Assembly (NCBI GenBank): GCA_030018495.1 | Contig: JASEFS010000019.1 | Coordinates: 1 to 64,000 of the forward strand | DNA: 64,000 nt | Direction of reading: 5' to 3' | Origin: Deltaproteobacteria bacterium | GTDB taxonomy: Bacteria > Desulfobacterota > Desulfobaccia > Desulfobaccales > 0-14-0-80-60-11 | In this document: in pieces, positions 5,170-39,942 of the stretch | Numbering within the stretch: the first letter of the stretch is position 1 | Layout: every line of letters begins with the position of its first letter | Program-made: the position numbers and the translations under genes | The notes under the pieces: model-generated | Told to the model about the DNA's origin: nothing | The model's database searches: none | The model's input: the letters and a program-made list of their open reading frames with translations, nothing else

Positions 5170-6009
5170 CTAATCCCGCCGCTTCACCACCAGCACCGGG
5201 CAGGGAGAGCTTCCGATAACCCGGGCTGCAATGCTGCCCATGAGCAGACGCTTGAGGCCGGTGCGGCCATGGCTGCCCACTATAATGAGATTCGCCTGTT
5301 TGTCATGCGCAATTTGCACGATAACGTCATCCGGCGCACCCACACTGACGTGGATCTCCATGGGGATGCCCTGGCGGTTGGCCCGCATGAGCATCTTCTG
5401 CACCACGGCCTCGGCTTCGGGCAATTCGCCTTCCTCCCGGGCCGCGCTGACGCCGATAAGCCGGGCATCCAAACGCCGGGTCATTTCCAGGGCCGCCTCC
5501 CAGGCCGCCTCGCTGTAAGGCGAGCCGTCGCTGGCGATGAGAACCCGTTCCCAGGGCAGGGGCGACTCCTGTGGGACAACCAGGACATTGGCCGGACTGA
5601 GGCCGATAACCCGCTCGGTGACGCTGCCCATCAGCAGGTAGCCAAGCCGGTGCTTGCCGTGTCGCCCCATGATGATCAAATGTATTCCCAGCTTCTGGGC
5701 TTCGTCCACAATCGCGGCATACGCGGCATCCGCCCGGCGGATGATACTTTTTACCGACACGCCCAGGTCTTGGGCCTCGGCTTCGATGCCGGCCAGGTCT
5801 GCTGCGACTTCCTGCTCCCATTGCAGCACCGCCTCAGGGGCCAGGCCGGTGTAGCCCAGGTTGTATTCCAGCACTTGCAGGAGATAAATGTGGCTGCGGC
5901 AGGTCCGGGCCAGGGCCAGGGCGGTGACGACCGCGCCTTTGCTGGCCGGGGAGCTGTCGGTGCAGACCAGGAGTTTTTCCATGGCGAGGGGGCAGGCGGG
6001 AAAGGTCAA
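5170..6009 (-). CDS. Tandem universal stress protein (two UspA domains)
   Basis: 279-residue cytoplasmic protein with two Usp domains (about 8-150 and 155-278). Each opens with a beta-strand/Asp motif (LLVCTDSS; VLIASDGS) and ends with the ATP-binding loop (GRHGKHRLGYLLMGSV; GSHGRTGLKRLLMGS). The TTG at 6009 is preferred because AGGAG lies eight bases upstream, whereas the internal ATG at codon 10 has no ribosome site. It lies 150 bp downstream of, and in the same direction as, a PEP-synthase-like gene. Usp domains bind ATP/AMP or respond to energy stress; the role here is unknown. Confidence 0.9.
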   Translation of the reverse strand: MTFPACPLAMEKLLVCTDSSPASKGAVVTALALARTCRSHIYLLQVLEYNLGYTGLAPEAVLQWEQEVAADLAGIEAEAQDLGVSVKSIIRRADAAYAAIVDEAQKLGIHLIIMGRHGKHRLGYLLMGSVTERVIGLSPANVLVVPQESPLPWERVLIASDGSPYSEAAWEAALEMTRRLDARLIGVSAAREEGELPEAEAVVQKMLMRANRQGIPMEIHVSVGAPDDVIVQIAHDKQANLIIVGSHGRTGLKRLLMGSIAARVIGSSPCPVLVVKRRD

Positions 6010-6158: not shown

Positions 6159-8756
6159 TTAGGCTTTTTCATCTTTTATCAATGATCCATTTTCTTCACC
6201 CGGGCGCTCGTAATGGCCGGCCAGAAAGCGCTCGGCCAGCAGATGAACCAGGTCCTCATTGGCCATGAGCATGTCCATTTGGCGCACGTAAGCCATGAGG
6301 CGGCCCAGCAGATCCAGCCTTTCTTCCATCTCCGGCTGAGGGCGCTTTCGGAAGCGGGCCCGGATAACGTCCAGGTGCCGCTCCACTTCAAAGCCCAGGC
6401 GCTCCAAAACCATGGCAATGAGTTGAGCCCGGCGGATGCGCCGGAGTTCATCCGCGGCGCCTCCCTTAAAATTGAAGTTCAGGTAATTTTCCCCCTGGGT
6501 AGGGCCGCAATAGCAATCCACGCTCTGAAAATGGTAGCCCAGGCGGCAGGCATAATTCACATAATTGGCCGCCACGATGGCATATGTCTTATCCCAGAAA
6601 TTCTCCGGCGGCCGGATGGCCGCTTGACCGAGAACGTGAAGGAAGCCGCCCATGTTCACCGGCACCGGGCCGGCCCAGGAGATGCCCGGGTGGCTGATGC
6701 CCTGCCACAAGGCCCGCATGGGGATAGAGAGGATGTCCTCGGGCGGCACCGGGCTCTTGTGGCTGGCCAGGCCGCCGCCCAGGTCCACCAGGTGCAGGTT
6801 TAGAGGGAGAGGCGTCTTCAATTTCAGGAGTCTAAGGGCCGGAACCTTGCCCAGAGATACCTGGTCCATGAGCCCGAACATCACCTGAATGCCTTTCTCG
6901 TGAGCAAAATAGGCGATGTCGTGGTAGGTGCGGCAATTTTCCGGGCGGAAAGAGGGATGCCGCGGGTCCACCAAGGTCAGCGGCACAATCAGGTCGGCCA
7001 CACTCTGCAGCTTCTCATAAAGGGGCGAACGCTCAAGCTGCGGCTGGCGGGACGGTTGGAAGCGCAGCAGCTCTTCCACCCGGCCGCGGTAAACCCTGAC
7101 GTTGAAGGCGTCGACCGTGACGGTTTCGCCCTCGGGCAACAGGGCCGTGGCATTAAAGGTGTCCACCAGAGCCGGAATGCCGTATTCCCGGGCGATGAGG
7201 GCCAGATGCCCGGTGGGTGACCCTACGTCCGTTACCAGGGCCGCGAGGCGCGGCACCACCGGGGCCAGGATGGGCTTGGTGCGCGGCGCCACCAGCACCG
7301 CGCCGGCAGGAATTTCGGCCAAATCCTGGTCGCCTTTGAGGAAGTGCACAGGTCCTGCGGCCACTCCCATGGAGGCGGGCAAGCCCTCTCTTAAAAGGAC
7401 TTCCGCGTCGGTCTCCACTCCAGCCAGGGCGCGGCACAGACGCGCCCGCACTTCGGTAAGGCGCAGAGGACGGCTCTGGACTATTACCAAATTTCCCTGC
7501 TCGTCTTTGAGCCATTCCACATCCTGGGGGTACCCGAAGTAATCTTCAAGAATTTGGGCCAAGCCTGACAGCTTACGGCAATCATCCCGGGAAAGAACCG
7601 GGGCCTCCGCCATATCAGGGTCGAGAGGTTCCTCCACCAGGAGACCCTCGCGGGGCACCAGACGATAGCTTTTCCAGCCGCGTCTTGCTTCCAGGACCTC
7701 GCCTTGTCGTTTGCCTACCAGATAGGCGTCCGGGCTGACTTTTCCACCGACCAGATCAGGGGCAAGCCCCCAGACGGCATTGATTATGAGGCGGTCAGGC
7801 AGGCAGCTTTCCGGATCCGTGGTGAACATAACGCCCGCAGCCTGAGCCGGAATCAGGGGTTGGATGAGGACGCTCATGGCCGAATCCTGGGGAGCGATGC
7901 CCTGGTCGTGATAATAGCTTAAGGCCCGCGCCGAAAACTGGGAAGCCGCCACTTCCCGCCAGCGCGCCGGCACCTCCTCTGCAGGCACACCGAGAAAACT
8001 GGCATAGAGACCGGCAAAGGTGGCAGCGGTATCCTCCAGCGCGCCGCTGGAACGCACCACCAGACTCCGGCCCGGTTCCGACGCCAACCTTCGGGCTTCT
8101 GCCAACAAAGCCCGGGCCAGCTCCTCAGGTACAGGCTGGGCCAGCATCAAGGCTTGCAGATCGTCGGCCGCGGCCTCTACTTCCCGCGGGTTGCCGTAAT
8201 CGAGCTTTGCCAGTCTGGCTTGCACGGCCTCCTGAAGCGTACCCGACTTCCCGTTCCGGCTAATTTTTTGTTCCACAAACAGGCGGTATGCCGAAAAGGT
8301 GGCCACCACTCCCGGTGGGACGGGAAGCTTCAGATCCATTATCAACCGGGCCAGATTGGCGGCCTTGCCGCCGAGGCTGGCCAAGTTATCCGGCGTTGCT
8401 TCTTCAAGACGTACCAATGGGGGCCCGGCAGGTAGTGGGGGATGAGCGGCCAAACGCTCGGATAAGGCTTCCTGGATTCTGCCGCGCACCTCATGCAGCT
8501 CCGGCCATCGCCCGCCCGACATCTTCAGCAGGGAAGCCACCAGATTGCGGATCTGCACATCAAGGGCGGCTACCGCGGCCCGCAGTGACTTGAGATCTAC
8601 GGCATGGCGGCCGGCCAGCTTTTCCTCCAAATCGCCCATCAGGGCCAGGGCTTCATTATTGGCGGCCAGGAGTTCCTGGAAGCCGTGAAATATTTCCCTG
8701 AGACCCGGAGCAGTACGGGGCAGCTTTTGGCGGCGGAAAAAATCAAGGAAGCCCAT
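6159..8756 (-). CDS. PEP-synthase-like ATP-grasp/phosphohistidine protein, paralogue A
   Basis: About 865 residues with four parts: an N-terminal helical region (1-105) shared with three paralogues in this window; a PPDK_N-type ATP-grasp (GGKAANL, VRSSGALED...FAG, NAVWGL, PQDVEW...QSRPLRL); a swivelling phosphohistidine domain with His517 in GSPTGHLALIARE; and an unrecognised C-terminal domain (about 575-850) with NCRTYHDI, DLGGGL, NYVNYACRLGYHF. The PEP/pyruvate-binding TIM barrel of PpsA/PPDK is absent. It should phosphorylate its own His from ATP, but the acceptor is unknown. ATG 8756 is chosen; a TTG six bases upstream is an alternative. Ribosome site is weak. Transcribed toward a tandem Usp gene and divergent from a TauE module. 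Confidence 0.88.
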   Translation of the reverse strand: MGFLDFFRRQKLPRTAPGLREIFHGFQELLAANNEALALMGDLEEKLAGRHAVDLKSLRAAVAALDVQIRNLVASLLKMSGGRWPELHEVRGRIQEALSERLAAHPPLPAGPPLVRLEEATPDNLASLGGKAANLARLIMDLKLPVPPGVVATFSAYRLFVEQKISRNGKSGTLQEAVQARLAKLDYGNPREVEAAADDLQALMLAQPVPEELARALLAEARRLASEPGRSLVVRSSGALEDTAATFAGLYASFLGVPAEEVPARWREVAASQFSARALSYYHDQGIAPQDSAMSVLIQPLIPAQAAGVMFTTDPESCLPDRLIINAVWGLAPDLVGGKVSPDAYLVGKRQGEVLEARRGWKSYRLVPREGLLVEEPLDPDMAEAPVLSRDDCRKLSGLAQILEDYFGYPQDVEWLKDEQGNLVIVQSRPLRLTEVRARLCRALAGVETDAEVLLREGLPASMGVAAGPVHFLKGDQDLAEIPAGAVLVAPRTKPILAPVVPRLAALVTDVGSPTGHLALIAREYGIPALVDTFNATALLPEGETVTVDAFNVRVYRGRVEELLRFQPSRQPQLERSPLYEKLQSVADLIVPLTLVDPRHPSFRPENCRTYHDIAYFAHEKGIQVMFGLMDQVSLGKVPALRLLKLKTPLPLNLHLVDLGGGLASHKSPVPPEDILSIPMRALWQGISHPGISWAGPVPVNMGGFLHVLGQAAIRPPENFWDKTYAIVAANYVNYACRLGYHFQSVDCYCGPTQGENYLNFNFKGGAADELRRIRRAQLIAMVLERLGFEVERHLDVIRARFRKRPQPEMEERLDLLGRLMAYVRQMDMLMANEDLVHLLAERFLAGHYERPGEENGSLIKDEKA

Positions 8757-8798
8757 AAGCAAATTTCATCAAAAATTTGGCATTCGGTCTTTACGAAA

Positions 8799-9143: not shown

Positions 9144-9437
9144 GTGAAAAAGTTTCCTGCTCTTATCCTAAATTTTCTCCTGCTCGCCCTGCCCGCCTTA
9201 GTCTGGGCTGCCGGTCCGGGAGAAAAAGCCCCGGATATGGCAACCCGCCAGGTAAAGGTGGAAGGCATCTCTTTTATCAATGCCTTTTTTGCCGGCTGGT
9301 ACAACGACAACAAGATGGTGTTCGCCATCATCGTCACGGTGATCATGGGCCTGGTTGGGGGCATCATCGCCTTTGTCACTGACATAATCCTGAAATTTAT
9401 CGGGATGGATGTCAGCAAAATCGAGCACCACGAATAG
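9144..9437 (+). CDS. Small membrane protein upstream of TauE permease
   Basis: 97 residues: a cleavable-looking signal (about 1-22, ending AWAA-like LVWAAG), a short extracytoplasmic stretch, and one transmembrane segment (about 57-83, FAIIVTVIMGLVGGIIAFV). GGAGG is positioned before the ATG. It is first in the operon behind the sigma-54 promoter and is followed by a TauE-type permease 22 bases downstream, so it may be an accessory subunit or chaperone of that permease. No named family recognised. Confidence 0.8.
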   Translation: MKKFPALILNFLLLALPALVWAAGPGEKAPDMATRQVKVEGISFINAFFAGWYNDNKMVFAIIVTVIMGLVGGIIAFVTDIILKFIGMDVSKIEHHE

Positions 9438-9459
9438 CTGGGATGGGAGGAATATAGGC

Positions 9460-10473
9460 ATGCTGGAAATGTTTAATGTGTACCTGCCAATAGCTGAGTT
9501 GCATTTCAACGCCTTCATCCTGGTGGCTATCGGCTTTTCCGTAGGGGTTTTGGGCGGCTTCTTCGGGGTAGGCGGTGCTTGGGTCGTCACCCCGGCTCTG
9601 AATATTTTCGGCTTCCCCATGGCTTACGCCATCGGTACGGATTTGGCTCATATTTTCGGGAAATCCATTGTGGCCACTGCCAAACACCGGAAGATGGGCA
9701 ATGTGGACATGAAATTGGGCTTTTTGTCCATAATCGGTTCCGTGATCGGCGTGGAGGCCGGCGCCCAGACCGTCATGTGGCTGACCGCCAAAGGTTTTGC
9801 CGGACCTGTGGTGCGTTATACTTACATGCTTCTCCTGTTCGGTTTGGGCATCTACATGCTCTATGACTATGCCACCAAAGACAAGCGGGCCGCAGCCAAG
9901 GCAGCCAAAACGGCTAATCCTGGTGCTGCCGTGATGGCGCCGCGCAAGGCCTGGAACTTGCCGCCCATGGTCCATTTTCCGGTTTCCGGCATTACCATTT
10001 CCTTTTGGACGGTCATGGGAGTGTTCTTTTTCACCGGCTATCTTTCCGGGTTTCTGGGGGTGGGCGGCGGCTTCATCCGCATGCCGGCCCTCATCTATCT
10101 GATCGGCTGTCCCACGGCCATTGCAGTGGGCACTGACCTGTTCTCGGTGCTCTTTTCCGGGGCTTACGGCTGTTGGACATACGGGGTGAAAGGCGCGGTG
10201 GACATTATCGCGGCTCTCTACATGCTTGTCGGCGCCTCCATCGGAGCACAGTTGGGCGTCACCGCGGTGAAATATATCCGGGGCTATGGCATTCGGCTCC
10301 TCTTTGCCATCATGATCATCCTGGCCGGGACCTCCGTGGCTTTAAAGCAATTCAATCTGACCACTGCGGCAGCCTGGTTGGTTATGAGCGCGGCGTTGGG
10401 CATGTGCGCCATTATTATGTTCAAGCTGTGGGTCGGCTTTAAGAAGGAAAAAGCCGAAAAGATGGGCCTTTAA
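9460..10473 (+). CDS. TauE/SafE-family anion permease
   Basis: 337-residue inner-membrane permease of the TauE/SafE (PF01925) family with about eight transmembrane helices in two repeats, each carrying the glycine motif (GGFFGVGGAWVVTPAL; SGFLGVGGGFIRMPAL) and a later G-T-D-L segment. ATG 9460 is chosen because GGGAGG lies nine bases upstream; longer in-frame starts overlap the previous gene. Family members export or import sulfite, sulfoacetate, sulfate or organic acids. Operon: small membrane protein, this gene, Usp. Substrate not determinable. Confidence 0.88.
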   Translation: MLEMFNVYLPIAELHFNAFILVAIGFSVGVLGGFFGVGGAWVVTPALNIFGFPMAYAIGTDLAHIFGKSIVATAKHRKMGNVDMKLGFLSIIGSVIGVEAGAQTVMWLTAKGFAGPVVRYTYMLLLFGLGIYMLYDYATKDKRAAAKAAKTANPGAAVMAPRKAWNLPPMVHFPVSGITISFWTVMGVFFFTGYLSGFLGVGGGFIRMPALIYLIGCPTAIAVGTDLFSVLFSGAYGCWTYGVKGAVDIIAALYMLVGASIGAQLGVTAVKYIRGYGIRLLFAIMIILAGTSVALKQFNLTTAAAWLVMSAALGMCAIIMFKLWVGFKKEKAEKMGL

Positions 10474-11814: not shown

Positions 11815-13539
11815 TCAATAAAATAGCAGCAAATAGACCGAAGCCAGGGCCACGGTGATGAGCATGGGAATCATGCAGGCCTTCATATAATAAAGAAATG
11901 AGATGTGATAGCCCGCCTTTTCGGCCAGTCCCACAGTGACCACGTTGGCGGAGGCGCCGATCATGGTGCCGTTGCCGCCGAAGCAGGCCCCCAAGGCCAA
12001 TGCCCACCACAAGACGCCGCTTTCCGCGCCGGGGATGGTGGTGTTTAAATACGCAACAATGGGGAGCATGGTGGCGGTGAATGGAATATTGTCGATAGCC
12101 GCGGAGGCCAGGGCCGCCACCCAGACTATCAGCAGGATCGCCACCGGCAGCGACCCCCGGGACATGTTCGCCACCCATTCGGCGATGGCCTGGATCAGGC
12201 CTGTCTCTTCTGCGCCCGCCACCACAATGAACAATGCCATGAAAAAGACCAGGGTGGGCCATTCCACTTCATGCTCCAGCATTTCCACGATATTGCCCCG
12301 GGAGATGGTGAGCAGCACCATGGCTCCGGTCAGCGCGGCGATGGACGGCTCCATGTGCAGGACGCCGTGAATAATGAACAGAAAGATGGTGAAGGCCAGC
12401 ATCCCCAGAGACAGTATGAGCAGCTTTTTATTAGTGATCTTATATTCTTCCCTCAAATATTCGATGGTGCGGCCCACATCCTTGACTTCGGCTTCCAGGT
12501 AGGACTTCTTGTACCAATAAACGTAGTAAATCAGGGTGACCGCCATGCAGATGCCCACAATGCCGGTCAGGTTCATCACAAAATCCACAAAGGACAGCTT
12601 GGCATAGGAGCCGATGAGGATATTGGGAGGGTCGCCGATCAGGGTGGCGGTGCCGCCCACATTGGAGGCAAAGACCTCGGGAATCAAAAACGCGATGGGG
12701 TTGACCTTGAGGGTGACCGCGATCTCAATGGTCACCGGGATCATAAGGAGCATGGTGGTGACGTTGTCCAGGAAGGCGGATGCCACCGCGGTGACCACCA
12801 TCAAGATGCAGGACAGGACGAACACGTTGCCCCGGGCGATGGCGTAGGACTTGAAGGCCAGCCACTGGAACATGCCGGTTTTTTTCAGGACCCCCACAAT
12901 AATCATCATGCCCATGAGCAGGAAGATGACGTTCATGTCCATGGCCGCCATGGCGTCCTCAAAAGACAGGATAAAGTAGTTTTTGTCAAAGGTGCCCGCG
13001 GTATAGGATATGAAAAGTATTACTGCGGCCCCCAGGAGCGCGGCCAGGGTGCGGTGCATCAATTCCGCGGCAATGATCACATAGACCAAAATCAGGATGC
13101 CGGTGGCCAGCCAGAAAGCGGGCGTGATCTTGCGGAACATATTGAAGGTCTGGTTCGCCTGGAACAACCGGTTGCCGTGCTGGTCCACTCCGGCTTCCAG
13201 GACCTGGACCGGGCTGGGCTGAAGATCCCGCCAAGCGGGCTTGTGGGCCTTAACCTCCACCTTGGCGGCCGGCAGGGAGCCTGCGGGCAAAATTACCTCC
13301 GCCATAAAGGCTCCATGCTTGCCGGTGACGACCTCTTCCCCGTCCACGGTCTCCTGGTGCCGGCCGTTGACCAGCACTTCCACTTCCACCTCCTTGACGC
13401 CCTTGCCCTGGGGATTTTTGATGACTCCGGATACGGTCAGCCGGTCTCCCGGCTCCGGCACGGCCGCGAAGCCCCAGACAACGCTGCAAAACAGGATGGG
13501 CAAAAGGAACGCTCCTGTCAGACGGATGACTCTGAACAT
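11815..13539 (-). CDS. ArsB/NhaD-like (SLC13-superfamily) permease with N-terminal extracytoplasmic domain, paralogue 1
   Basis: 574 residues. A signal peptide (about 1-25) and an Ig-like/carboxypeptidase-regulatory-like domain (about 30-120; GDRLTVSGVIKNPQGKGVKE, VTGKHGAFMAEV) precede about eleven transmembrane helices. Transporter signatures occur twice, as in ion-transporter superfamily repeats: FLDNVTTMLLMIPVTIEIA with GDPPNILIGSYA, and AIDNIPFTATMLPIV with GNGTMIGASANVV. ATG with AAGGAG. Second gene of a minus operon, 54 bp after paralogue 2. Likely an anion or Na+/H+ antiport-type carrier; substrate unknown. The soluble domain on a permease is unusual. Confidence 0.85.
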   Translation of the reverse strand: MFRVIRLTGAFLLPILFCSVVWGFAAVPEPGDRLTVSGVIKNPQGKGVKEVEVEVLVNGRHQETVDGEEVVTGKHGAFMAEVILPAGSLPAAKVEVKAHKPAWRDLQPSPVQVLEAGVDQHGNRLFQANQTFNMFRKITPAFWLATGILILVYVIIAAELMHRTLAALLGAAVILFISYTAGTFDKNYFILSFEDAMAAMDMNVIFLLMGMMIIVGVLKKTGMFQWLAFKSYAIARGNVFVLSCILMVVTAVASAFLDNVTTMLLMIPVTIEIAVTLKVNPIAFLIPEVFASNVGGTATLIGDPPNILIGSYAKLSFVDFVMNLTGIVGICMAVTLIYYVYWYKKSYLEAEVKDVGRTIEYLREEYKITNKKLLILSLGMLAFTIFLFIIHGVLHMEPSIAALTGAMVLLTISRGNIVEMLEHEVEWPTLVFFMALFIVVAGAEETGLIQAIAEWVANMSRGSLPVAILLIVWVAALASAAIDNIPFTATMLPIVAYLNTTIPGAESGVLWWALALGACFGGNGTMIGASANVVTVGLAEKAGYHISFLYYMKACMIPMLITVALASVYLLLFY

Positions 13540-13593: not shown

Positions 13594-15327
13594 TCAATAG
13601 ACAGTGATTAAATAAACCGTTGATAAAGCCAGGGTGACCAGCATGGGGATGAAACAGGCCTTGAGATATTCCCCGAAAGAAATGGAATATCCCGCCTTTT
13701 CGGCGAGGCCTACGGTCACTATATTGGCGGAGGCGCCGATCATGGTGCCGTTGCCGCCGAACGCGGCCCCGAGAGCCAAGGCCCACCACAGGGCGCCGCC
13801 TTGGGCCGCCGGCATGATACTGCTCAAGTGGGCGATAATAGGCAGCATGGCCGCGGTAAAAGCAGTGGTTTCAACCACGCAGGATGCCAAGGCTGAAATC
13901 CACAGGACCAGAAGCAGCGCCAAAATGAAATTGCCCCCCGCGGTTTGGTCCACCCAGTCCGCAATCATTTGAAGCAATCCGGTGGAGCGGACGCCGGCAA
14001 TAATGATGAAAAGAGCCATGAGAAAGAGCAGGGTGGGCCATTCCACCTCGTGTTCCAGCAAGCTGACGATGTCGACCCGGGAGATGATCACCAATAAAAT
14101 GGCGCCGCTGAGCGCGGCCACAGAAGGCGGCATGCCCAGGAGATGATGCACCAGAAACAGCAGCAGCATGCCGGCCAGAATAATCAGCGACCTCGCCAGC
14201 AGCCGCTTATCCCGGATGCGGTATTCCGTCTTAAAAAAATCGAGGGTGCGGGAAACATCCAGGTCGAACACCCGGCGATAAACCCGGCGATACCAGAAAA
14301 AGTAGTAGACTACCGCCACGACCACACAAATGAGTACTATGCCGCTCATATTGGCCAGAAAATCCACAAAGGAGAGCCTGGCATACGAGCCGATCATGAC
14401 ATTGGGAGGATCGCCGATCAGGGTGGCCGCTCCCCCGAGGTTGGCCGCGAAGACTTCGGGAATCAAAAAGGCCGTGGGGTTCACTTTCAAGGGCAAGGCG
14501 AGTTCAATGGTCACCGGGATCACCAGGAGCATGGTGGTGACGTTGTCGATAAGGGCTGAAACGGCCGCGGTGAACAGCATCAAAAAACAAACCAAAAACA
14601 GCACCCGGCCGCGCGCCAGTGCATAAGCCTGATAGGCCAGCCAGCGGAACAGGCCGGTTTTTCTTAAAACTCCGACAATGAACATCATCCCCAAAAGCAG
14701 GAACACGACGTTCATGTCAATAGCTTCCACGGCATCTTCAAAGGACAAGATGAAAAAGTCCTCATTAAAGGTGCCCACTGCATAAGTAATGAACAGCAGC
14801 AAGGCGGCTCCCAAGGTCGCGGCCAAAGTGCGATGCAGCCGCTCCATGGTAATGAGGGCAAATACGGCCAGAAGAACGCCCCCGGCAATCCAGGCTGCCG
14901 ACGTCAGGCGCCGCTTTAAGGTGATTTTTTGGACGGCCTGAAAAACGCGGCCGCCGGCCCGGTCCCGGGGAGCTTCTATAACAGGAACAGGGAGGGCGGC
15001 GGACCGAAACCCGGGTCTCTGAGCGCGGATTTCCACCCGGGCGGGTGGGAGCTTGCCGGCAGGCAGGGCAAACTCAGCCACAAAAACGCCATGCCGGTCG
15101 GTGGCCACCAGGGTTTCGCCCTCGATCGTCGGCAGCGGCTGGCCATCAACCTCGACCTGGACTTGCACGTCTCTCAGCTCCCTGCCCTGGGAGTCCCGGA
15201 CAACCCCTGATAGATTTAAGGTATCCCCCGGCGCCGGCGCGGCGGCAGCCAAGTTAAAAGGCCCCAGCAAGCAAGCCACGAGTGGGGGGAACAGGATTCT
15301 GAGGGCGCCTCGGAAAATGGGCAGCAT
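13594..15327 (-). CDS. ArsB/NhaD-like permease with N-terminal extracytoplasmic domain, paralogue 2 (altered second motif)
   Basis: 577 residues with the same architecture: signal segment, Ig-like domain with GDTLNLSGVVRDSQGRELRD, then multiple membrane helices with LIDNVTTMLLVIPVTIELA and GDPPNVMIGSYA. In the second repeat the motif that reads IDNIPFTATMLPIV in the two other paralogues is VETTAFTAAMLPII here, replacing the conserved Asp-Asn pair; GNGTMIGASANIV is kept. The change falls where charged residues sit in these carriers, so transport specificity may differ. ATG with AAAGG. First gene of the minus operon, divergent from the CBS gene. Confidence 0.83.
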   Translation of the reverse strand: MLPIFRGALRILFPPLVACLLGPFNLAAAAPAPGDTLNLSGVVRDSQGRELRDVQVQVEVDGQPLPTIEGETLVATDRHGVFVAEFALPAGKLPPARVEIRAQRPGFRSAALPVPVIEAPRDRAGGRVFQAVQKITLKRRLTSAAWIAGGVLLAVFALITMERLHRTLAATLGAALLLFITYAVGTFNEDFFILSFEDAVEAIDMNVVFLLLGMMFIVGVLRKTGLFRWLAYQAYALARGRVLFLVCFLMLFTAAVSALIDNVTTMLLVIPVTIELALPLKVNPTAFLIPEVFAANLGGAATLIGDPPNVMIGSYARLSFVDFLANMSGIVLICVVVAVVYYFFWYRRVYRRVFDLDVSRTLDFFKTEYRIRDKRLLARSLIILAGMLLLFLVHHLLGMPPSVAALSGAILLVIISRVDIVSLLEHEVEWPTLLFLMALFIIIAGVRSTGLLQMIADWVDQTAGGNFILALLLVLWISALASCVVETTAFTAAMLPIIAHLSSIMPAAQGGALWWALALGAAFGGNGTMIGASANIVTVGLAEKAGYSISFGEYLKACFIPMLVTLALSTVYLITVY

Positions 15328-15577: not shown

Positions 15578-16084
15578 ATGCCTAACGCAACCAAAGTCAA
15601 GGATCTTATGATCCCTCTGGAGGATTATCCGCACATCCCGTACTGGTTCACCCTGCGCCAGGCCATGGCCATCGTCCGGGAGGCCTCCATTAAGTATGAA
15701 GGGTTTATGCCCAGGTCGGTTCTGGTTTTTGATGAAAAATATCAGCTCATGGGCATGTTGACCCTGCGGGACATCATAAAGGGCCTGGAACCTCAGTTTT
15801 TAAAAGAAACAGCCCTAATAAAGGTTGATCCCAGCCTCACCATACTCACCAAGGACCTGTTCGGCCCCGGTTTGAAGCAGGCTTCCCAAAAGCCGGTAAG
15901 CGAAGTCATGAGCCCCATCAAGGTGATGGTTAATGCTGATGATCCCATTGCCAAGGCCTTGTTCCTGATGATCAAGGAAAATGTGGGCATGATGCCGGTC
16001 ATGCAGGAAAAAAAGGTGGCGGGCATGATTCGCCTGAGCGACCTGTTCAAGGTCGTCTCGGATGCCGTGCTGGGTGATGAATAA
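15578..16084 (+). CDS. CBS-domain-pair protein
   Basis: 168 residues with two CBS motifs: VKDLMIPL...GMLTLRDIIKGL (about 5-70) and VSEVMSPIKVMV...VAGMIRLSDLFKVV (about 105-165). CBS pairs bind adenine nucleotides and often gate transporters or enzymes. Strong GGGAGG before the ATG. It is followed 76 bases later by a DASS-type permease and then an ArsB-like permease, so a regulatory role in anion transport is a reasonable inference. No other domain is present. Confidence 0.88.
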   Translation: MPNATKVKDLMIPLEDYPHIPYWFTLRQAMAIVREASIKYEGFMPRSVLVFDEKYQLMGMLTLRDIIKGLEPQFLKETALIKVDPSLTILTKDLFGPGLKQASQKPVSEVMSPIKVMVNADDPIAKALFLMIKENVGMMPVMQEKKVAGMIRLSDLFKVVSDAVLGDE

Positions 16085-16160: not shown

Positions 16161-17693
16161 ATGGCTGAAGAACCCAGAAAAATGCCGGTAGGCGAAGGCC
16201 TGCCGGAAATGCCCGAAGAGATCGTCCTGGCTCCGGTGAAGCGGGTCATAGACTGGAAACGCGTGTTTTTCATCTTGTTGGGACTCGGCATATTCTTGCT
16301 CTTTTATCTGATTCCGGGCTTGCCCGACGCGGTGGACCCCAACGGCAAAGTTTTCACCTTGTCCTGGACCGGGAAAATGGCCCTGGGGCTGTTTCTTATG
16401 GCCGGCACCTGGTGGGTCTTTGAGGTCATGCCCATCGGCGGCACGGCCATCGCCATCGGCCTGTTTCAGACTTTATTTTACATCCGGCCCGCCAAAGAGG
16501 CCTTGCGGGACTTTCTTGACCCCTCCGTCTGGTTCATCTTCGGCTCTGTGGTCATCGGTCTGGCCTTCACCCGCTCCGGCTTGACCAAACGTATGGCTTA
16601 CAAAATGCTGAATGTGGTGGGGGAGCGCACCAACTTCATTTTGCTGGGGTCGTTTATAGTCACCGCGGCCATGACCCTGCTCATGGCCCACACCGCGGTG
16701 GCCGCCGCCATTTTTCCTCTGCTCCTGGCCATTCACAGCCTCTATAGCGATTCGGATGAGCCCACCCGGTTCGGCAAAGGCCTCTTTATCGGCATGGCCT
16801 GGGTGGCCGGCGCCGGCTCCATCATCACCTACTTGGGAGCCGCCCGGGGCGTGGCTGCGGCCGGGATGTTCAAAGAATTCACGGGCCATGATATCGGCTT
16901 CTTTCAACTCACCTGGTACATGTTCCCCATCGGCTTCCTCATGGTGTTCCTCATCTGGCTGATCATCATCATCTGCTTTCGGCCGGAGCGGCCGCGCATC
17001 GAAGGCTTGCGGGAGAAAGCCATCGAGCTGGCCAGGGAGCTGGGTCCCCTGAACCCCCGGGAAAAGTTTGTCATCTTCACCATGGTGGCCGTTATTGTGC
17101 TGTTCATGCTCAAGTCCTTCGCCCCGTATAAAGTCCTGCAAGACCTGGATCGGGCGGGCATTATGCTGACCGCCACCGTGGCCTTTTTTCTTACCCGGAC
17201 CCTCACGGTGGAAGACTTGGAGGCCATCCCCTGGAACATTATTCTGCTCTTCGGCGGGGCCATGAGCATCGGCTTTTGCCTGTGGCAGACCGGCGCGGCC
17301 CAGTGGCTGGCGGTGCACTGGCTTACCCTGTTCCTCAAGGCCAACTGGCTGGTGTTCGTGCTGGGCATCGCCTTCTTCGTCCTGGTAATGACCAATTTCA
17401 TCATGAACGTGGCCGCGATCGCCATTTCGCTCCCGGTGTCCCTGGTCATCGCCAATTATTTGGGGGTGGCGCCCCATGTGATTCTCTTCGCCTCCCTGGT
17501 GACCGCGGGGATGCCCTTCAACCTCTTGATCGGCGCGGCGCCCAATGCCATCGCGTATGAGAGCAAGCAGTTCACCACCGGCGAGTTCTTCGGCTACGGC
17601 ATGATTCCCAGCGCCGTGCTCATGGCGGTCCTGGCGGTCTTTGTTTATCTGATTTGGCCGCTCATGGGCATGCCGGTGGTCGTAGCTAAGTAG
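16161..17693 (+). CDS. DASS/SLC13-family divalent anion:Na+ symporter-like permease
   Basis: 510-residue permease with about twelve membrane helices; an N-terminal cytoplasmic tail (1-30) precedes the first helix. SLC13/CitT-type features include WWVFEVMPIGGTAIAIG, LLMAHTAVAAAIFPLL and the C-half TNFIMNVAAIAISLPVSL with GMPFNLLIGAAPNAIAYES, the clamshell-loop SNT/NAT-like positions. Family members carry sulfate, thiosulfate or di/tricarboxylates; sulfate is plausible in a sulfate reducer but is inference. ATG with AAGGAG. Likely cotranscribed with the CBS gene before it and the ArsB-like gene 45 bp after it. Confidence 0.87.
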   Translation: MAEEPRKMPVGEGLPEMPEEIVLAPVKRVIDWKRVFFILLGLGIFLLFYLIPGLPDAVDPNGKVFTLSWTGKMALGLFLMAGTWWVFEVMPIGGTAIAIGLFQTLFYIRPAKEALRDFLDPSVWFIFGSVVIGLAFTRSGLTKRMAYKMLNVVGERTNFILLGSFIVTAAMTLLMAHTAVAAAIFPLLLAIHSLYSDSDEPTRFGKGLFIGMAWVAGAGSIITYLGAARGVAAAGMFKEFTGHDIGFFQLTWYMFPIGFLMVFLIWLIIIICFRPERPRIEGLREKAIELARELGPLNPREKFVIFTMVAVIVLFMLKSFAPYKVLQDLDRAGIMLTATVAFFLTRTLTVEDLEAIPWNIILLFGGAMSIGFCLWQTGAAQWLAVHWLTLFLKANWLVFVLGIAFFVLVMTNFIMNVAAIAISLPVSLVIANYLGVAPHVILFASLVTAGMPFNLLIGAAPNAIAYESKQFTTGEFFGYGMIPSAVLMAVLAVFVYLIWPLMGMPVVVAK

Positions 17694-17738: not shown

Positions 17739-19460
17739 ATGCGGAAAATCTTAGTCCGCGGCGCTTTTGCGCTACTCATGCTGTGTCTGATAGCCCCGGC
17801 TGCGTTGGCCCAGGTGGACGGCCCCGGTGACCGCCTCACTCTCTCTGGAGTAGTGAAGAACCCCCAGGGCAAAGGCGTCAAAGAGGTGGAGATAGAGGTC
17901 CTGGTCAACGGCCGGCATGTCAAGCCTCTGGGCGCGGATGAAGAGATCGTCACCGGCAGCAAAGGAAGTTTCGTGGAGGAGTTTCAGCTCCCTGCAGGGA
18001 CCCTTCCCGACGCCCGGATTGAGATCAAAGCCAGCAAGCCCAGTTGGCAAACCCTGACCGCTGCGGTGGACGCGGTGGCGCAGACAGGGACGGACGAGAA
18101 GGGGAACCGGCTTTTTCAGGCCACCCAAAATTTGCCTCTTAAGCGGGCCGTCGTCCCGGCCTTTTGGATCGCCACTTTGGTTCTCATGGCGACTTACGTG
18201 CTCATCGCCGCGGAGGTAATGCACCGCACCCTGGCGGCCCTTCTGGGCGCGGCGGTGATCCTCTTCATCACCTACACCGCCGGCACCTTCGACAAAAGCT
18301 ACTTTATTCTTTCCTTCGAGGACGCTATCGGGGCCATCGACATGAACGTCATCTTCCTGCTCATGGGCATGATGATCATTGTCGGGGTCCTCAAAAAGAC
18401 CGGGCTCTTTCAGTGGCTGGCATACAAGTCCTACGCCCTGGCCCGTGGCAATATTTTTATCCTGTCCTTCATCCTGCAGGTGGTCACCGCGGTGACTTCG
18501 GCCTTTCTGGACAACGTCACCACCATGCTGCTCCTGATCCCGGTGACCATTGAGATTGCCGTGACCCTGAAGGTGCACCCCTTGACCCTGCTGGTGCCCG
18601 AGGTGTTCGCCTCCAACGTGGGGGGCACCGCCACCTTGATCGGGGACCCGCCCAACATCCTCATCGGCTCCTACGCCAAGCTGACCTTCGCCCAGTTTGT
18701 CGTCAATCTCGCCTTGATCTGCGGCGTCTGCCTGGTGATCTCGTGCCTCTGGTACCTCTGGTGGTATAAGAAGGGCTATCTGGAAGCGGAGGTCAAGGAC
18801 GTGGACCGGACCATCGGCTACCTGAGGGAAGAGTACCGCATCACGGATAAGAAGCTGACGGTCATGGGTCTGGGGATTCTGGGTTTTGTCATCTTCCTGT
18901 TCGTCGTCCACGGGGTCCTGCACATGGAGCCCTCCATTGCCGCTCTCATCGGCGCCATGCTGCTGTTGACCATATCCAGGGTGGACATCGTGGAGATGTT
19001 GGAGCACGAAGTGGAGTGGCCCACCCTGGTGTTCTTCATCGCGCTGTTCATGGTCATCGCCGGGGCGGAAGAGACGGGGCTCATTCAGATGATCGCCGAA
19101 TGGGTGCTGAACGTCTCCCAGGGCAACCTGACCATCGCCATAATCATGATTCTGTGGGTTTCGGCCATCGCCAGCGCGTTTATCGACAATATTCCTTTCA
19201 CCGCCACCATGCTGCCCATCGTGCTATTTCTCAACGAAAGCATGGGCGTGACCAATAACGTGCTCTGGTGGTCCCTGGCCCTGGGGGCCTGCCTGGGCGG
19301 CAACGGCACCATGATCGGGGCCAGCGCCAATGTGGTGACGGTGGGCCTGGCCGAGAAGGCCGGCTATCACATTTCCTTTCTCGGCTACATGCGGGCCTGC
19401 TGGTGGCCCATGCTCCTAACCGTGGCCATTTGCATGGCCTATCTGCTGATTGCCTATTGA
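17739..19460 (+). CDS. ArsB/NhaD-like permease with N-terminal extracytoplasmic domain, paralogue 3
   Basis: 573 residues, closely similar to paralogue 1: signal peptide (about 1-25), Ig-like domain with GDRLTLSGVVKNPQGKGVKE, then membrane helices with FLDNVTTMLLLIPVTIEIA, GDPPNILIGSYA, FIDNIPFTATMLPIV and GNGTMIGASANVV. All second-repeat residues lost in paralogue 2 are intact here. AGAGGA ribosome site. Third gene of the CBS-DASS run; a 231-base spacer with palindromes separates it from the PEPS-like/HK/RR operon downstream. Confidence 0.85.
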   Translation: MRKILVRGAFALLMLCLIAPAALAQVDGPGDRLTLSGVVKNPQGKGVKEVEIEVLVNGRHVKPLGADEEIVTGSKGSFVEEFQLPAGTLPDARIEIKASKPSWQTLTAAVDAVAQTGTDEKGNRLFQATQNLPLKRAVVPAFWIATLVLMATYVLIAAEVMHRTLAALLGAAVILFITYTAGTFDKSYFILSFEDAIGAIDMNVIFLLMGMMIIVGVLKKTGLFQWLAYKSYALARGNIFILSFILQVVTAVTSAFLDNVTTMLLLIPVTIEIAVTLKVHPLTLLVPEVFASNVGGTATLIGDPPNILIGSYAKLTFAQFVVNLALICGVCLVISCLWYLWWYKKGYLEAEVKDVDRTIGYLREEYRITDKKLTVMGLGILGFVIFLFVVHGVLHMEPSIAALIGAMLLLTISRVDIVEMLEHEVEWPTLVFFIALFMVIAGAEETGLIQMIAEWVLNVSQGNLTIAIIMILWVSAIASAFIDNIPFTATMLPIVLFLNESMGVTNNVLWWSLALGACLGGNGTMIGASANVVTVGLAEKAGYHISFLGYMRACWWPMLLTVAICMAYLLIAY

Positions 19461-19691: not shown

Positions 19692-22250
19692 ATGGTGACC
19701 TCTATCAGGAGGGCCTGGCAGCGCCTTGCCAAGGCCGGGCCGAAGCATAAGCCGCACCTGGAATTGTCCGAAAAGTATGCGCATTTCCAACGGCTTTTAT
19801 CGGCCAACAATCAGGTTTTGGCCCTGATGACGGATATGGAGGAGAAGTTGTCGGGCGATTACCTGTTTGATTTCCACTACATCCGCAGCACGGTGGACCG
19901 GATGCGCGCCGAAACCACGGCCCTGGTGGAGGCCTTGAACGGCATGTCCGGAAATCGTTACCAGGCGCTCTCCCGCGCTTCTGCCCAAATATTAGGCGAA
20001 GTCGAGGACATCCTTAAGCGGCGCCGGGAAATTCCGGTGGCGCCGCTGGTGATTCGGTTCGAAGATCTCAATGCAGAGATGGCGGAAATAGCGGGCGGCA
20101 AGGCCGCAAATTTGGGGGAGGTAAAAAACCGCGTCGGCCTGCCGGTGCCCCCCGGCTTTGCCATTTCCAGCTATGCGTATAAATGTTTTTTGGACTACAA
20201 TCAGCTCAGCGAGCGCCTCACCGCGCTCTTGAACCGCTGGAGCATGGCGGACCTGGACACTTTGTCCCAAGTCAGTCAAGAGCTTAAAGTCATGGTCCAC
20301 GCCGCCCGGGTGCCTCCCGACCTGGAGGAAGCCATGTGCCAGGGCTATGCCAGGCTGGCCGCGGAGACCGGGGGCCGCCCGCTTCTGGCCCTGCGGTCCA
20401 GCGCGGTGGGTGAGGACCTGACCTTTACCTTTGCAGGGCAGTATGCCACCTATTTGAATGTAACTCCTGAAGAGATGGCCAGCCGCTATAAGGACATCGC
20501 CGCCAGCCTCTTCACCCCGAGGGCTTTATTTTATTATAAAAACAAAGGATTTCGAGAAGAGGAAATGGCCATGGGCGTGGCGGTCATGCCCATGATTCAG
20601 GCCAAAGCCAGCGGGGTGCTGTTTACGCGGCACTCCGATCCCCGGCGCCAGGACGCCGCGCTCATCAATGCGGTTTGGGGTTTGGGCAAATATGCCGTCA
20701 CCGGCAAGGTCAGCCCCGATCAATATGTGGTTTCTTATGAGGAGCACGGCCGGGTTCTGGAAGAAGTCATTGCCGAAAAAAATGTCATGCTGGTAAGCCT
20801 GCCGGAGGGGGGGGTGGAGGAAAGGCCGGTGCCGCCGGAACTGGTTAAAGCCCCCTGCCTGGGAGCCCCGGAAATAACGGAACTCCTGCGGTGGGCCGAA
20901 ATCTTGGAGAGACACTACGGCCGGCCCCAGGACGTGGAATGGGCCCTGGACGAAGACGGGCGGCTGTGGCTTCTGCAAAGCCGGCCCCTTAAAGTGTCCG
21001 TCAAAAAAGCAGTGGAGCAGAAACCCCGGGTGTTCAAAGATTATCCGGTGCTTTTGGACAAAGGCACGGTAGCCTGCCGGGGAGTGGGCGCCGGGCCTGT
21101 GGTTATAGTGAAAAGCGAACAGGATTTGAAAAATTTCCCCCCCGGCGCGGTGCTGGTGGCCCGCCACACCTCCCCCAAATATGTCACGGTCATGGACCGG
21201 GCCGCCGCGGTCATCACGGACGCGGGCAGTCCCACCGGCCATATGGCACTTCTGGCCCGGGAGTTCAAAGTGCCGGCCATCCTGTGCACGGAGAACGCCA
21301 CCAGGGTTTTACGCCCCGGCCAGGTGGTTACGGTGGACGCCAACTTCAACAACGTCTATGAAGGGGTGGTGCAGGAGCTGTTGGATACTGAGAAGGAGAC
21401 GGGAAACGATTTGGCCGACACCCCGGTGTTTCAGACCCTGAAGGCGGTGGTGAAAAAAGTTGTCCCCTTGAATCTTCTGAATCCTCAGGACGAAAGTTTT
21501 GCCGCTGAAAATTGCCGCACTTTGCATGATGTGGTGAGGTTCGCCCACGAGCATTCCATGCGGGAGATGTTCAAACTCAGCGAAAACGACCTGGAGGGCG
21601 ACCTGGACCTGGTGGATTTGGAGACGGACCTGCCTCTGAAAGTGCGGCTTCTGGACCTGGGCGGCGGCTTAAAGCGGGGTTTCCGGCGCAAGGTCAAACC
21701 CCAGCAAATTCTCTCGCTGCCGTTCAAGGCCTTTTATCAGGGCCTCACCTCCATGCGCTGGCCGCAGGCCAAACCTGCCGGAGTGAAAAGCCTGGCCTCG
21801 GTTTTCGTGAGCACCGAAGAGGATGTGGCCCAGGGGGCCTCGCGCTGGCAGGATCAGAGTTATGTGGTCCTCTCCCAAAATTATATGAATTTCAGCATCC
21901 GTTTGGGCTATCATTTGTCCACCGTGGAAGCGTACTTAAGCGACCAGATCAATGACAACTATATAACCTTTCATTTCAAGGGGGGCGGCTCCACCCCCGA
22001 GCGGCGGGAACGGCGCACCCGCCTGATTGCCGAGATAATCAGTCACATTGATATCAACTGCCGGGTGAAAGGCGATTTCATTGAGGCCCGGGTGGCCAAA
22101 TATCCTCTGAAAGACATGGCCCGGCGGTTGACCCTGCTGGGAAAGCTCACGGTATATACCAAGCAGCTTGATATGGTGCTGTTCTCCGAAGGCATCGTCG
22201 ACTGGTACATCAAAGATTTCCTGCGGGAACACGTGGGAACGGGGAACTGA
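19692..22250 (+). CDS. PEP-synthase-like ATP-grasp/phosphohistidine protein, paralogue B
   Basis: 852 residues with the family layout: helical N-region (LLSANNQVLALMTDMEEK; GDYLFDFHYI), ATP-grasp (GGKAANLGE, LRSSAVGEDLTFTFAGQY, INAVWGLGK, PQDVEWALDEDG, QSRPLK), phosphohistidine domain with His517 in GSPTGHMALLAREFKVPAI, and the unrecognised C-terminal domain (NCRTLHDVVRFAHEH, LDLGGGL, NYMNFSIRLGYHL, DNYITFHFKGGG). No PEP-binding barrel. GGAAGGA lies upstream of the ATG. Its stop is one base before the histidine kinase start, implying translational coupling: PEPS-B, HK, RR, PEPS-C form one operon. Acceptor molecule unknown. Confidence 0.9.
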   Translation: MVTSIRRAWQRLAKAGPKHKPHLELSEKYAHFQRLLSANNQVLALMTDMEEKLSGDYLFDFHYIRSTVDRMRAETTALVEALNGMSGNRYQALSRASAQILGEVEDILKRRREIPVAPLVIRFEDLNAEMAEIAGGKAANLGEVKNRVGLPVPPGFAISSYAYKCFLDYNQLSERLTALLNRWSMADLDTLSQVSQELKVMVHAARVPPDLEEAMCQGYARLAAETGGRPLLALRSSAVGEDLTFTFAGQYATYLNVTPEEMASRYKDIAASLFTPRALFYYKNKGFREEEMAMGVAVMPMIQAKASGVLFTRHSDPRRQDAALINAVWGLGKYAVTGKVSPDQYVVSYEEHGRVLEEVIAEKNVMLVSLPEGGVEERPVPPELVKAPCLGAPEITELLRWAEILERHYGRPQDVEWALDEDGRLWLLQSRPLKVSVKKAVEQKPRVFKDYPVLLDKGTVACRGVGAGPVVIVKSEQDLKNFPPGAVLVARHTSPKYVTVMDRAAAVITDAGSPTGHMALLAREFKVPAILCTENATRVLRPGQVVTVDANFNNVYEGVVQELLDTEKETGNDLADTPVFQTLKAVVKKVVPLNLLNPQDESFAAENCRTLHDVVRFAHEHSMREMFKLSENDLEGDLDLVDLETDLPLKVRLLDLGGGLKRGFRRKVKPQQILSLPFKAFYQGLTSMRWPQAKPAGVKSLASVFVSTEEDVAQGASRWQDQSYVVLSQNYMNFSIRLGYHLSTVEAYLSDQINDNYITFHFKGGGSTPERRERRTRLIAEIISHIDINCRVKGDFIEARVAKYPLKDMARRLTLLGKLTVYTKQLDMVLFSEGIVDWYIKDFLREHVGTGN

Positions 22251-24583: not shown

Positions 24584-24994
24584 ATGGCCGAAAGACTGTT
24601 AGTTGTTGATGATGAGCCGAACATGTTGAGGCTTTTAAAGACTATCCTGATGGATAAAACCGGCTATGAAGTGGAAACCACCAACAACCCCCTTGAGGTG
24701 GAAAAGATGCTCAAGGAGCAGCCCTACGACCTGGTGGTGACCGACCTCAAAATGCCCTTGGTGGACGGCATTGATTTAATAGAAATCATCAAGAAAATCG
24801 ATTCCCAGATCCCCATTATTATCATTACGGCCTACGGCACCATGGAGACCGCCGAAGAGGCCATTCAGAAGGGCGCCTACGACTTCATCACCAAACCCTT
24901 CCGCAAAGAGAGCATCTTGATAACCATAAAGCGGGCCCTGGAGTGGAAAAGGATGCATCGCGAACTGGCCGCCTTGAAAACGCCGGGAGCCTGA
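24584..24994 (+). CDS. Receiver-only response regulator
   Basis: 136 residues, one REC domain: acidic pocket VVDDEP, phospho-acceptor Asp54 in VVTDLKMP, Thr switch in IIITAYGT, Lys in FITKPFRKES. NtrC-like receiver but with no AAA+ or DNA-binding domain; the C-terminal 20 residues are a short helix. CAGGAGGA precedes the ATG at 24584. Because output is missing, it probably acts by protein contact, perhaps on the flanking PEPS-like proteins (inference). Confidence 0.92.
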   Translation: MAERLLVVDDEPNMLRLLKTILMDKTGYEVETTNNPLEVEKMLKEQPYDLVVTDLKMPLVDGIDLIEIIKKIDSQIPIIIITAYGTMETAEEAIQKGAYDFITKPFRKESILITIKRALEWKRMHRELAALKTPGA

Positions 24995-27715: not shown

Positions 27716-27746
27716 AAGCGAATATTTTGGGTTGGGAGGAATGCGC

Positions 27747-28688
27747 ATGGAAATCTATCTTCCCATTGCCGGGATGAGTCTCAACTTTTTCCTTGTCATC
27801 GGCATTGGTGCGGTGGTGGGTTTTCTTTCGGGTCTATTCGGGGTGGGAGGCGGCTTTCTGCTAACGCCCTTGATGATGATGATCGGCATACCACCGGCGG
27901 TGGCTGCGGCCTCGGATTCCAATCAGATTGTGGCGGCGGCCAGTTCCGGGGCTTTCGCCCACTGGCGCCTGGGTAATGTGGATTTCAAGCTGGGCCTGAT
28001 CATTTTGGCGGGCGGCATCTTCGGCGGCACCATCGGCGTGCAGCTTGTGTATTATCTGCGTCAGGTCGGCAATTTTGAATTCGTTATGAAAGTAGTGTAT
28101 GTGCTCATGCTGGGGCTGGTGGGCGGCGCCATGTTCATGGAGAGCCTGCGCACCATCATGCGCAGCCGCAGGCCGGCGTCAGATCCGGTGGTGGTGGAAT
28201 CCGCCCAGCCAAAACTATCCAGGATGTTTGACAGGCTGCCCCTGAAAATGCACTTCCATCGCTCGGGCTTGCACACCTCGGCCATTTTTCCCTTTTCCAT
28301 CGGCACCACCGTGGGCATCATGGCGGCTCTGCTGGGCGTGGGCGGCGGGTTTATCATGGTGCCGGCCATGATCTACATCATCGGCATGCCCACCATCGTA
28401 GCCATCGGCACCGACTTGTTCCAGATTGTGCTCACTTCGGCCAACGTCACGCTTCAACAGGCGTTTGTCAATAAAACGGTGGACCTGCTCCTGGCGCTGG
28501 TGCTTCTTTTCGGCTCCACTATCGGCGCCCAGTTCGGGGCCATGGCGGGCAAGCGTCTAAAAGGCGAGCAGATCCGGATCCTCCTGGCAATCATCGTTTT
28601 GGCCATGACCGTGAAGCTCTTCCTGGATTTGGTCCTGACTCCGGAACATTTGGTCAGTCTGGCCCCTGCCAAGGGAGGAGGACACTGA
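27747..28688 (+). CDS. TauE/SafE-family anion permease, second copy
   Basis: 313 residues, about eight membrane helices in two repeats with SGLFGVGGGFLLTPLMMMIG and ALLGVGGGFIMVPAMIYIIG plus VAIGTDLFQIVLTSANVT. ATG 27747 is chosen over the ATG at 27741 because GGGAGGA ends at 27740, giving a six-base spacing. Followed immediately by a TIGR02186/PF09608 protein and a Usp gene. Same family as the permease at 9460, but with a different accessory partner. Sulfite or related oxyanion export is a plausible guess, not demonstrated. Confidence 0.9.
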   Translation: MEIYLPIAGMSLNFFLVIGIGAVVGFLSGLFGVGGGFLLTPLMMMIGIPPAVAAASDSNQIVAAASSGAFAHWRLGNVDFKLGLIILAGGIFGGTIGVQLVYYLRQVGNFEFVMKVVYVLMLGLVGGAMFMESLRTIMRSRRPASDPVVVESAQPKLSRMFDRLPLKMHFHRSGLHTSAIFPFSIGTTVGIMAALLGVGGGFIMVPAMIYIIGMPTIVAIGTDLFQIVLTSANVTLQQAFVNKTVDLLLALVLLFGSTIGAQFGAMAGKRLKGEQIRILLAIIVLAMTVKLFLDLVLTPEHLVSLAPAKGGGH

Positions 28689-39938: not shown

Positions 39939-39942
39939 AAAC

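Follow-up and report, generated by a model that had tools for sequence, protein, structure and literature searches.

What has taken the place of the PEP-binding barrel in a multi-copy group of PEP synthase-like (PEPS-like) proteins, and what might it do there? The question is raised by a 64,000-nt stretch of DNA (the window), which encodes four of the nine PEPS-like proteins of its host genome, named A, B, C, and D. All four end in a common region of ~280 residues, here called the CTD, at the position of the barrel in PEP synthase. Little is known about how sulfate reducers select, import, and regulate sulfur oxyanions; in a genome survey (PMC5840216) most candidate transporters, TSUP/TauE included, have no assigned function and the PEPS-like/CTD family is unmentioned. 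In the reading we prefer, at roughly even confidence, a regulator derived from a dikinase controls sulfur-oxyanion transport in dsr-carrying microbes, and the CTD serves as its specificity head.

An unrecognized domain in place of the PEP barrel

Protein A (6159..8762, reverse strand, 867 aa) consists of an N-terminal helical region (residues ~1-115), a PPDK_N ATP-grasp domain (129-436), a phosphohistidine mobile domain (485-553), and the CTD (~575-867). The CTD of A corresponds to the last 293 residues of the protein (575-867), encoded at 6159..7040 on the reverse strand. The other three proteins are B (19692..22250, forward strand, CTD at 21375-22238), C (25032..27596, forward strand, CTD at 26688-27560), and D (33572..36097, reverse strand, CTD at 33578-34432). 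A sequence-only reading of the window had described a motif-sharing stretch at the end of all four, and this description holds: the translated CTD of A contains NCRTYHDIAYFAHEK, VDLGGGL, NYVNYACRLGYHF, and ENYLNFNFKGG, and equivalents with conservative variation are found at the ends of B, C, and D (e.g., HDV..FAHEH in B and ESYVTLVFYGG in D). With the CTD of B as the query, all nine genomic copies were recovered, the other eight at E-values of 1e-65 to 1e-39, and with a profile built from four CTD sequences over 50 homologues were found outside this genome, at E-values down to 1e-116. The likeness among A-D is therefore due to homology and not to chance.

Pfam assigns PPDK_N (E-values of 1e-69 to 1e-92) and the PEP-utilizers mobile domain to A-D and leaves the C-terminal ~290 residues without an assignment. 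The two assigned domains occur in the same order as in PpsA (pyruvate, water dikinase; TIGR01418), but the PEPS-like proteins have the CTD instead of the PEP-utilizers_C barrel, as the sequence-only reading had also claimed, and carry an extra N-terminal helical region of ~115 residues. Scores of A-D were 275-379 bits against TIGR01418 (cut-off 739.75) and 292-393 bits against NF005057 (cut-off 598). A role as the PEP synthase of the cell is unlikely, as the host genome has an 814-aa open frame with a barrel; three separate barrel-bearing proteins, distinct from the PEPS-like proteins, are encoded in this genome. PTS enzyme I and PpdK share the phosphohistidine swivel domain and, unlike the PEPS-like proteins, both end in a PEP barrel. 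Rifampin phosphotransferase (RPH) is similar in that an ATP-grasp domain and a His swivel domain are combined with a non-barrel acceptor domain, and the full-length PEPS-like model matches RPH structures 5hv1-5hv3 overall by Foldseek, whereas the CTD-only model does not. The domain order also differs, being ATP-RIF-His in RPH and ATP-His-CTD in the PEPS-like proteins, and A-D scored 193-234 bits against the NCBIfam RPH model, for which the cut-off is 999. Residues 1-115 of A-D, which precede the part matching canonical PEP synthase, form a common three-helix region with no Pfam match; this region is a candidate receiver-binding or dimerization part.

The CTD was compared with known domains by sequence and by structure. 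In Pfam, nothing above noise was found for the CTD in any of 56 members; matches to magnetochrome, SoxZ, and MbnP were seen in one or two members each at E-values above 0.01 and were rejected as noise. No NCBIfam model covered the CTD, the PEP synthase models being limited to the front part, and a PDB sequence search with a profile of the four full-length proteins returned matches to the ATP-grasp and His domains only. The CTD was modeled confidently by AlphaFold2 from an alignment of 56 sequences (pLDDT 85.2, pTM 0.76), and the model is not a barrel: a long helix with the HDIxxFxHE motif is followed by two short strands, helices, four strands, a helix, two strands, and a long helix. Foldseek searches with this model against the PDB and the viral models of BFVD gave nothing at E ≤ 0.001. 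The best match, to a T3SS-chaperone or YbjN-like fold (E-value 0.033, TM-score 0.22 by query length), was rejected, as were weak matches to 2plg, C-Ala/DHHA1, arginine kinase, and ExsC (TM-score by query length under 0.25 in each case). For the full-length model (pLDDT 87.8), matches to PEP synthase, RPH, and PPDK were obtained, as expected from the front part.

Two hidden relationships were considered and rejected. A divergent PEP barrel is at odds with the absence of PEP-utilizers_C in Pfam, with the non-barrel model, and with an hhalign probability of 0.2% against 43 barrels. The HD helix, DxGGG, and N-Y-x-N motifs of the CTD resemble the H-, G1-, and N-boxes of histidine kinases; hhalign against 59 kinase cores (HisKA + HATPase_c) also gave 0.2%, and the histidine-kinase ATPase fold was absent among the Foldseek matches listed for the CTD model. 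As a positive control, two halves of the CTD family aligned at 100%. A confident match to a characterized domain was thus looked for in these libraries and not found, and the domain stays unrecognized, as first proposed. The front two domains are known, the libraries searched contain no description of the CTD or of the N-terminal helical region, and the literature found contains no paper treating the PEPS-like/CTD family as such. The CTD constitutes a C-terminal module new to the phosphohistidine dikinase superfamily.

Conserved residues and degenerate paralogues

Conservation was assessed in an alignment of 84 full-length relatives, with residues numbered as in A. D615, H621, H744, R778, and D830 are invariant in all 84, H614 is present in 83, and C610 is present in 98%; the invariant or nearly invariant set of the CTD comprises H614, D615, H621, G688, H744, G767/G768, R778, and D830. 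On the reverse strand, the near-invariant helix motif HDIAYFAH, from H614-D615 to H621, is encoded at 6900..6923, and the codons of H744 (in RLGYHF), R778, and D830 lie at 6531..6533, 6429..6431, and 6273..6275, respectively. The sequence-only reading took invariant His, Arg, and Gly runs as catalytic or ligand-binding. The His/Asp/Arg set is as would be expected of an active or ligand site, but the GGG of DLGGGL varies, with G662 found in 55 of the 84 relatives. In the front part, the equivalent of the phosphocarrier His (H519 of A, in GSPTGH, codon at 7206..7208 on the reverse strand) is present in A-D and in 77/84 relatives.

The key ATP-grasp residues are kept in about 72-82 of the 84 relatives, and the catalytic module as a whole (key ATP-grasp and His residues) is intact in 73. 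Ten relatives are clearly degenerate, having lost ATP-grasp residues, the phosphocarrier His, or both. These proteins need two origins on the CTD tree, and the CTD residues are retained in both lineages. The pseudo-enzyme paralogues are L033:4211-6793, L122, L120, L123, L126, L130, L109, L026:11986-14475, L043:8702-11206, and L137:8798-11359. Where their surroundings are visible, degenerate copies sit with an intact paralogue, as in the three-gene runs of L026, L043, and L137; those in L033 and L135 adjoin a kinase and a receiver. Because degenerate copies keep the CTD residues and sit with an intact paralogue, the CTD can do its job without phosphotransfer by the same chain, at least in a complex. 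A short relative outside the 84 (L031, 608 aa) is without the ATP-grasp domain and the His, and its CTD is eroded.

These data bear on the suggestion, made from the sequence, that the CTD is the phosphoacceptor-binding domain. As a small-molecule dikinase, the protein would pass the ATP beta-phosphate via H519 to a substrate bound by the CTD, and the product would feed sulfur metabolism. PEP synthase has the same order of ATP-grasp, His domain, and C-terminal acceptor domain, the intact module in most relatives and the invariant His/Arg/Asp set are consistent with such an enzyme, and related enzymes are reported to phosphorylate rifampin (RPH, PMC4844700) and hydroxyphenylethanones (PMC12167813). 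The suggestion is weakened by the two independent lineages that lost catalytic residues and kept those of the CTD. Genomes carry 1-12 CTD copies, tandem copies occur, and histidine kinase and response regulator genes lie nearby, which is unusual for a metabolic enzyme, and recognizable pathway genes were not seen around the PEPS-like genes. We regard a phosphoacceptor role as unlikely.

Gene neighborhoods and distribution

The surroundings of the PEPS-like genes are those of transport and two-component signaling. In the window, gene A has a tandem universal stress protein (Usp) downstream (5170..6009, reverse strand) and is divergent from a TauE/TSUP anion transporter (9409..10473, forward strand). 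Gene B begins a co-directional run with small gaps on the forward strand, in which it is followed by a dCache-PAS histidine kinase (22252..24561, its ATG 1 base past the B stop), a receiver-only response regulator of 136 aa (24584..24994), C, a TauE/TSUP transporter (27732..28688), an Alph_Pro_TM membrane protein (28690..29487), and a Usp (29487..29957). On the reverse strand, D is likewise co-directional, with small gaps, with a dCache-PAS histidine kinase directly downstream (31304..33565, 6-base gap) and then a receiver-only response regulator of 139 aa (30869..31288), clearly homologous to the Response_reg protein encoded at 24584-24994. Between A and B lie a CitMHS/DASS-type transporter (11815..13539, reverse strand), its CitMHS-type paralogue (13594..15327, reverse strand), a CBS-domain protein (15578..16084, forward strand), a DASS (sodium:sulfate symporter family) transporter (16161..17693, forward strand), and a further CitMHS-type transporter (17739..19460, forward strand). 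The three CitMHS-type transporters have a common N-terminal extension of ~140 residues (PGDRL.LSGVVKNPQGKGVKEVEVEVLVNG...), which is probably periplasmic and seems unusual for the family; L016, L021, and L038 contain similar clusters in which DASS and CBS genes are present.

Two-component and transporter neighbors, together with multiple copies, also distinguish the PEPS-like proteins from PpsA across genomes. Within 6 kb of 36 CTD loci, a response regulator was found at 28, a histidine kinase at 25, TauE at 21, CBS at 10, DASS/CitMHS at 8, and Alph_Pro_TM at 6, compared to 3 and 4 for response regulators and histidine kinases and 0 for each of the other four at 44 canonical PEP-synthase loci, a contrast that partly reflects lineage since the control loci are mostly archaeal; the CTD loci come from many phyla. 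In same-strand gene chains of 65 CTD genes, a response regulator occurred with 34, a histidine kinase with 24, and TauE with 17. Among the nearby same-strand receiver ORFs, 24/36 are at most 180 aa and probably have no output domain. In L046, a single 1138-aa frame joins a homologue of the Alph_Pro_TM protein to PPDK_N, PEP-utilizers, and the CTD (the last by profile), and a TauE gene lies 10 bases upstream; this arrangement directly hints that the PEPS-like protein acts at the membrane next to a transporter.

A phenotype has been published for a cluster of this kind. Korte et al. 2014 (PMC4001038) described a "nitrate cluster" in D. vulgaris, in which transposon insertions in DVU0251 (TauE), DVU0250 (hypothetical), DVU0247 (receiver), or DVU0246 (dikinase-like) left the cells indifferent to nitrate at 100 mM; this shared nitrate resistance may be a polar effect along one operon. 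The same cluster was observed in D. alaskensis pools, and D. alaskensis cluster mutants were mildly sick on thiosulfate, cited there as unpublished data; with these data, the authors hypothesized a leaky thiosulfate transporter. They annotated only the ATP-grasp and His domains of the dikinase-like protein (DVU0246/Dde_0604) and proposed no specific role for it. In L136, from the Nitratidesulfovibrio genus, the genes for DUF169, TauE, Phosphonate-bd (PtxB), a HAMP-PAS kinase, a 119-aa receiver, a PEPS-like protein with the CTD, and a DSP phosphatase match the order of DVU0251-DVU0245/Dde_0597-0605 (Table 3 in PMC4001038), the receiver corresponding to DVU0247 at 360 bp. By its length of 744 aa (2235 bp), DVU0246 would fit a core plus CTD lacking the N-terminal helices. 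By synteny with this congeneric genome, the PEPS-like proteins of the window would be homologues of a gene with a phenotype; the synteny holds for the L136 relative, while the clusters of the window differ in gene content, with other kinases (dCache-PAS) and more transporters. That one phenotype follows from loss of the gene for the transporter, for the receiver, or for the dikinase-like protein is consistent with a positive role in transport. In the literature found, DVU0246/DVU0251 are named only in PMC4001038 and in one paper on biofilms; they are absent from Price et al. 2014 (PMC4215793).

The same neighborhoods raise the possibility of a protein-phosphotransfer hub, in which the CTD would dock and phosphorylate a partner (a transporter loop, Usp, CBS protein, or receiver) as an enzyme I-like branch into two-component signaling. 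Histidine kinase, receiver, CBS, and transporter genes are frequent nearby, Usp genes occur in the host genome's own clusters, tandem intact and degenerate copies suggest heteromeric complexes, and in the nitrate cluster a DSP-type phosphatase gene (DVU0245, PMC4001038) lies 3' of the PEPS-like gene. An isolated DVU0245 mutant did not, however, show the nitrate-resistant phenotype (PMC4001038), and no HPr-like or EII-like partner was noticed. We consider such a hub improbable. The genomic setting, of kinase, receiver, and transporter genes in dsrA-carrying genomes, points to regulation of anion transport, as in the specificity-head reading, rather than to a stand-alone phosphotransferase.

Sulfate or sulfite respiration has dsrA as its key gene, and the presence of this gene was scored in 148 genomes of the host phylum that were at least 90% complete, a score that does not tell reductive from oxidative or disproportionating use. 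dsrA was above the cut-off in 58/58 genomes with the CTD and in 21/90 without it, and the CTD was found in 0/69 dsrA-negative genomes (Fisher p of 1e-23, which is not a chance probability as the genomes are related, falling in 28 families). The 21 genomes with dsrA and no CTD are G014, G028, G033, G035, G039, G047, G070, G075, G085, G095, G100, G108, G119, G121, G124, G125, G132, G135, G144, G147, and G157; in many of them the dsrA match is shorter and stops near model position 387-397, possibly the sign of another dsr type (oxidative or disproportionating). Eleven CTD-carrying genomes were reached via other loci, mostly in other phyla (Nitrospirota, Acidobacteriota, Latescibacterota, Myxococcales, Thermoleophilia, Zixibacteria, Poribacteria, and one "Proteobacteria" bin); dsrA was over the cut-off in 10, and in the remaining one fragments of dsrA lie at the ends of contigs. 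The CTD was present in 27 of 100 Nitrospirota genomes, with a full dsrA in 22 of these, a split dsrA in one, a dsrB-like match only in two, and no dsr in two. In the Moorella phylum, 33 of 199 genomes have dsrA and none has the CTD. Given these dsrA-positive genomes and the Nitrospirota exceptions, sulfate reduction as such does not require the CTD system; in some lineages the family is linked to the dsr pathway, without being a universal part of it. Because the family is nearly restricted to dsrA carriers and adjoins anion transporter and two-component genes, it probably aids control of sulfur-compound uptake.

Proposed mechanism and other genes of the window

The PEPS-like protein is most likely a two-component-linked, ATP-using regulator that acts on sulfur-oxyanion uptake, with the CTD predicted to act as a ligand- or partner-binding head. 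This proposal starts from direct observations of architecture, barrel absence, conservation, neighborhood, fusion, dsrA co-occurrence, and nitrate-cluster synteny with published phenotypes; from these, we infer receiver binding, the ATP chemistry of the family, a ligand, and a direct effect on the transporter. A membrane histidine kinase would sense an outside or redox signal and phosphorylate the response regulator, which is mostly receiver-only; phosphotransfer from kinase to receiver is the established chemistry of both families. Since the receiver has no DNA-binding output, we propose that it acts by binding the PEPS-like protein, a step suggested by the receiver-only proteins in the same gene chains. 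The ATP-grasp and swiveling phosphohistidine domains would then convert ATP to AMP + Pi, with phosphohistidine formation from ATP predicted from the intact residues, and the PEPS-like protein would change state. Conversion of ATP to AMP + Pi might also let the protein gauge the adenylate pool, which sulfate activation drains. The putative site of the CTD (H614/D615/H621/H744/R778/D830) would bind either a partner or a ligand such as a sulfur oxyanion or a metal, and this binding would switch on the neighboring TauE or DASS transporter, with Alph_Pro_TM as a possible membrane anchor in some lineages.

In its fullest form, the proposal describes an undescribed signaling family, nearly confined to dsr bacteria of several phyla, in which a receiver-driven ATP-to-AMP phosphohistidine machine uses the CTD to sense a sulfur oxyanion and gate TauE/DASS transport, with pseudo-enzyme partners in the same operons. 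We advance this version tentatively, as possible rather than probable; if true, it would represent a dedicated control layer of sulfur-oxyanion respiration. Quite unlikely, in our view, is a CTD that is a metal- or redox-sensing domain (candidate ligands C610, H614, D615, H621, E622, H744, and D830) tuning the dikinase core to redox with an indirect link to transport, as R778 would make an unusual metal ligand, although the high conservation of C610, the essentially invariant H614/H621/H744 and D615/D830, and the dsr-carrying, mostly anaerobic host lineages are compatible with it.

The CTD family comes close to being a marker of dsrA genomes in the phylum of the host and in the Nitrospirota. 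It offers a genetic handle and links specific transporters to specific kinases. It is also a molecular candidate for the unexplained nitrate-resistance cluster of Desulfovibrio, a point relevant to the use of nitrate against oil-field souring.

Three other genes or gene groups of the window were noted. Directly upstream of the D operon, 36939-38339 (reverse strand) encodes a 466-aa protein with CxxCH motifs and a weak cytochrome c7 match, likely a c-type cytochrome by its motifs. An MlaC protein followed by a large protein resembling an RND/MMPL-type exporter is encoded at 39348-42723 (reverse strand), and a CHASE2-adenylate/guanylate cyclase with TPR is encoded at 47181-49325 (forward strand).
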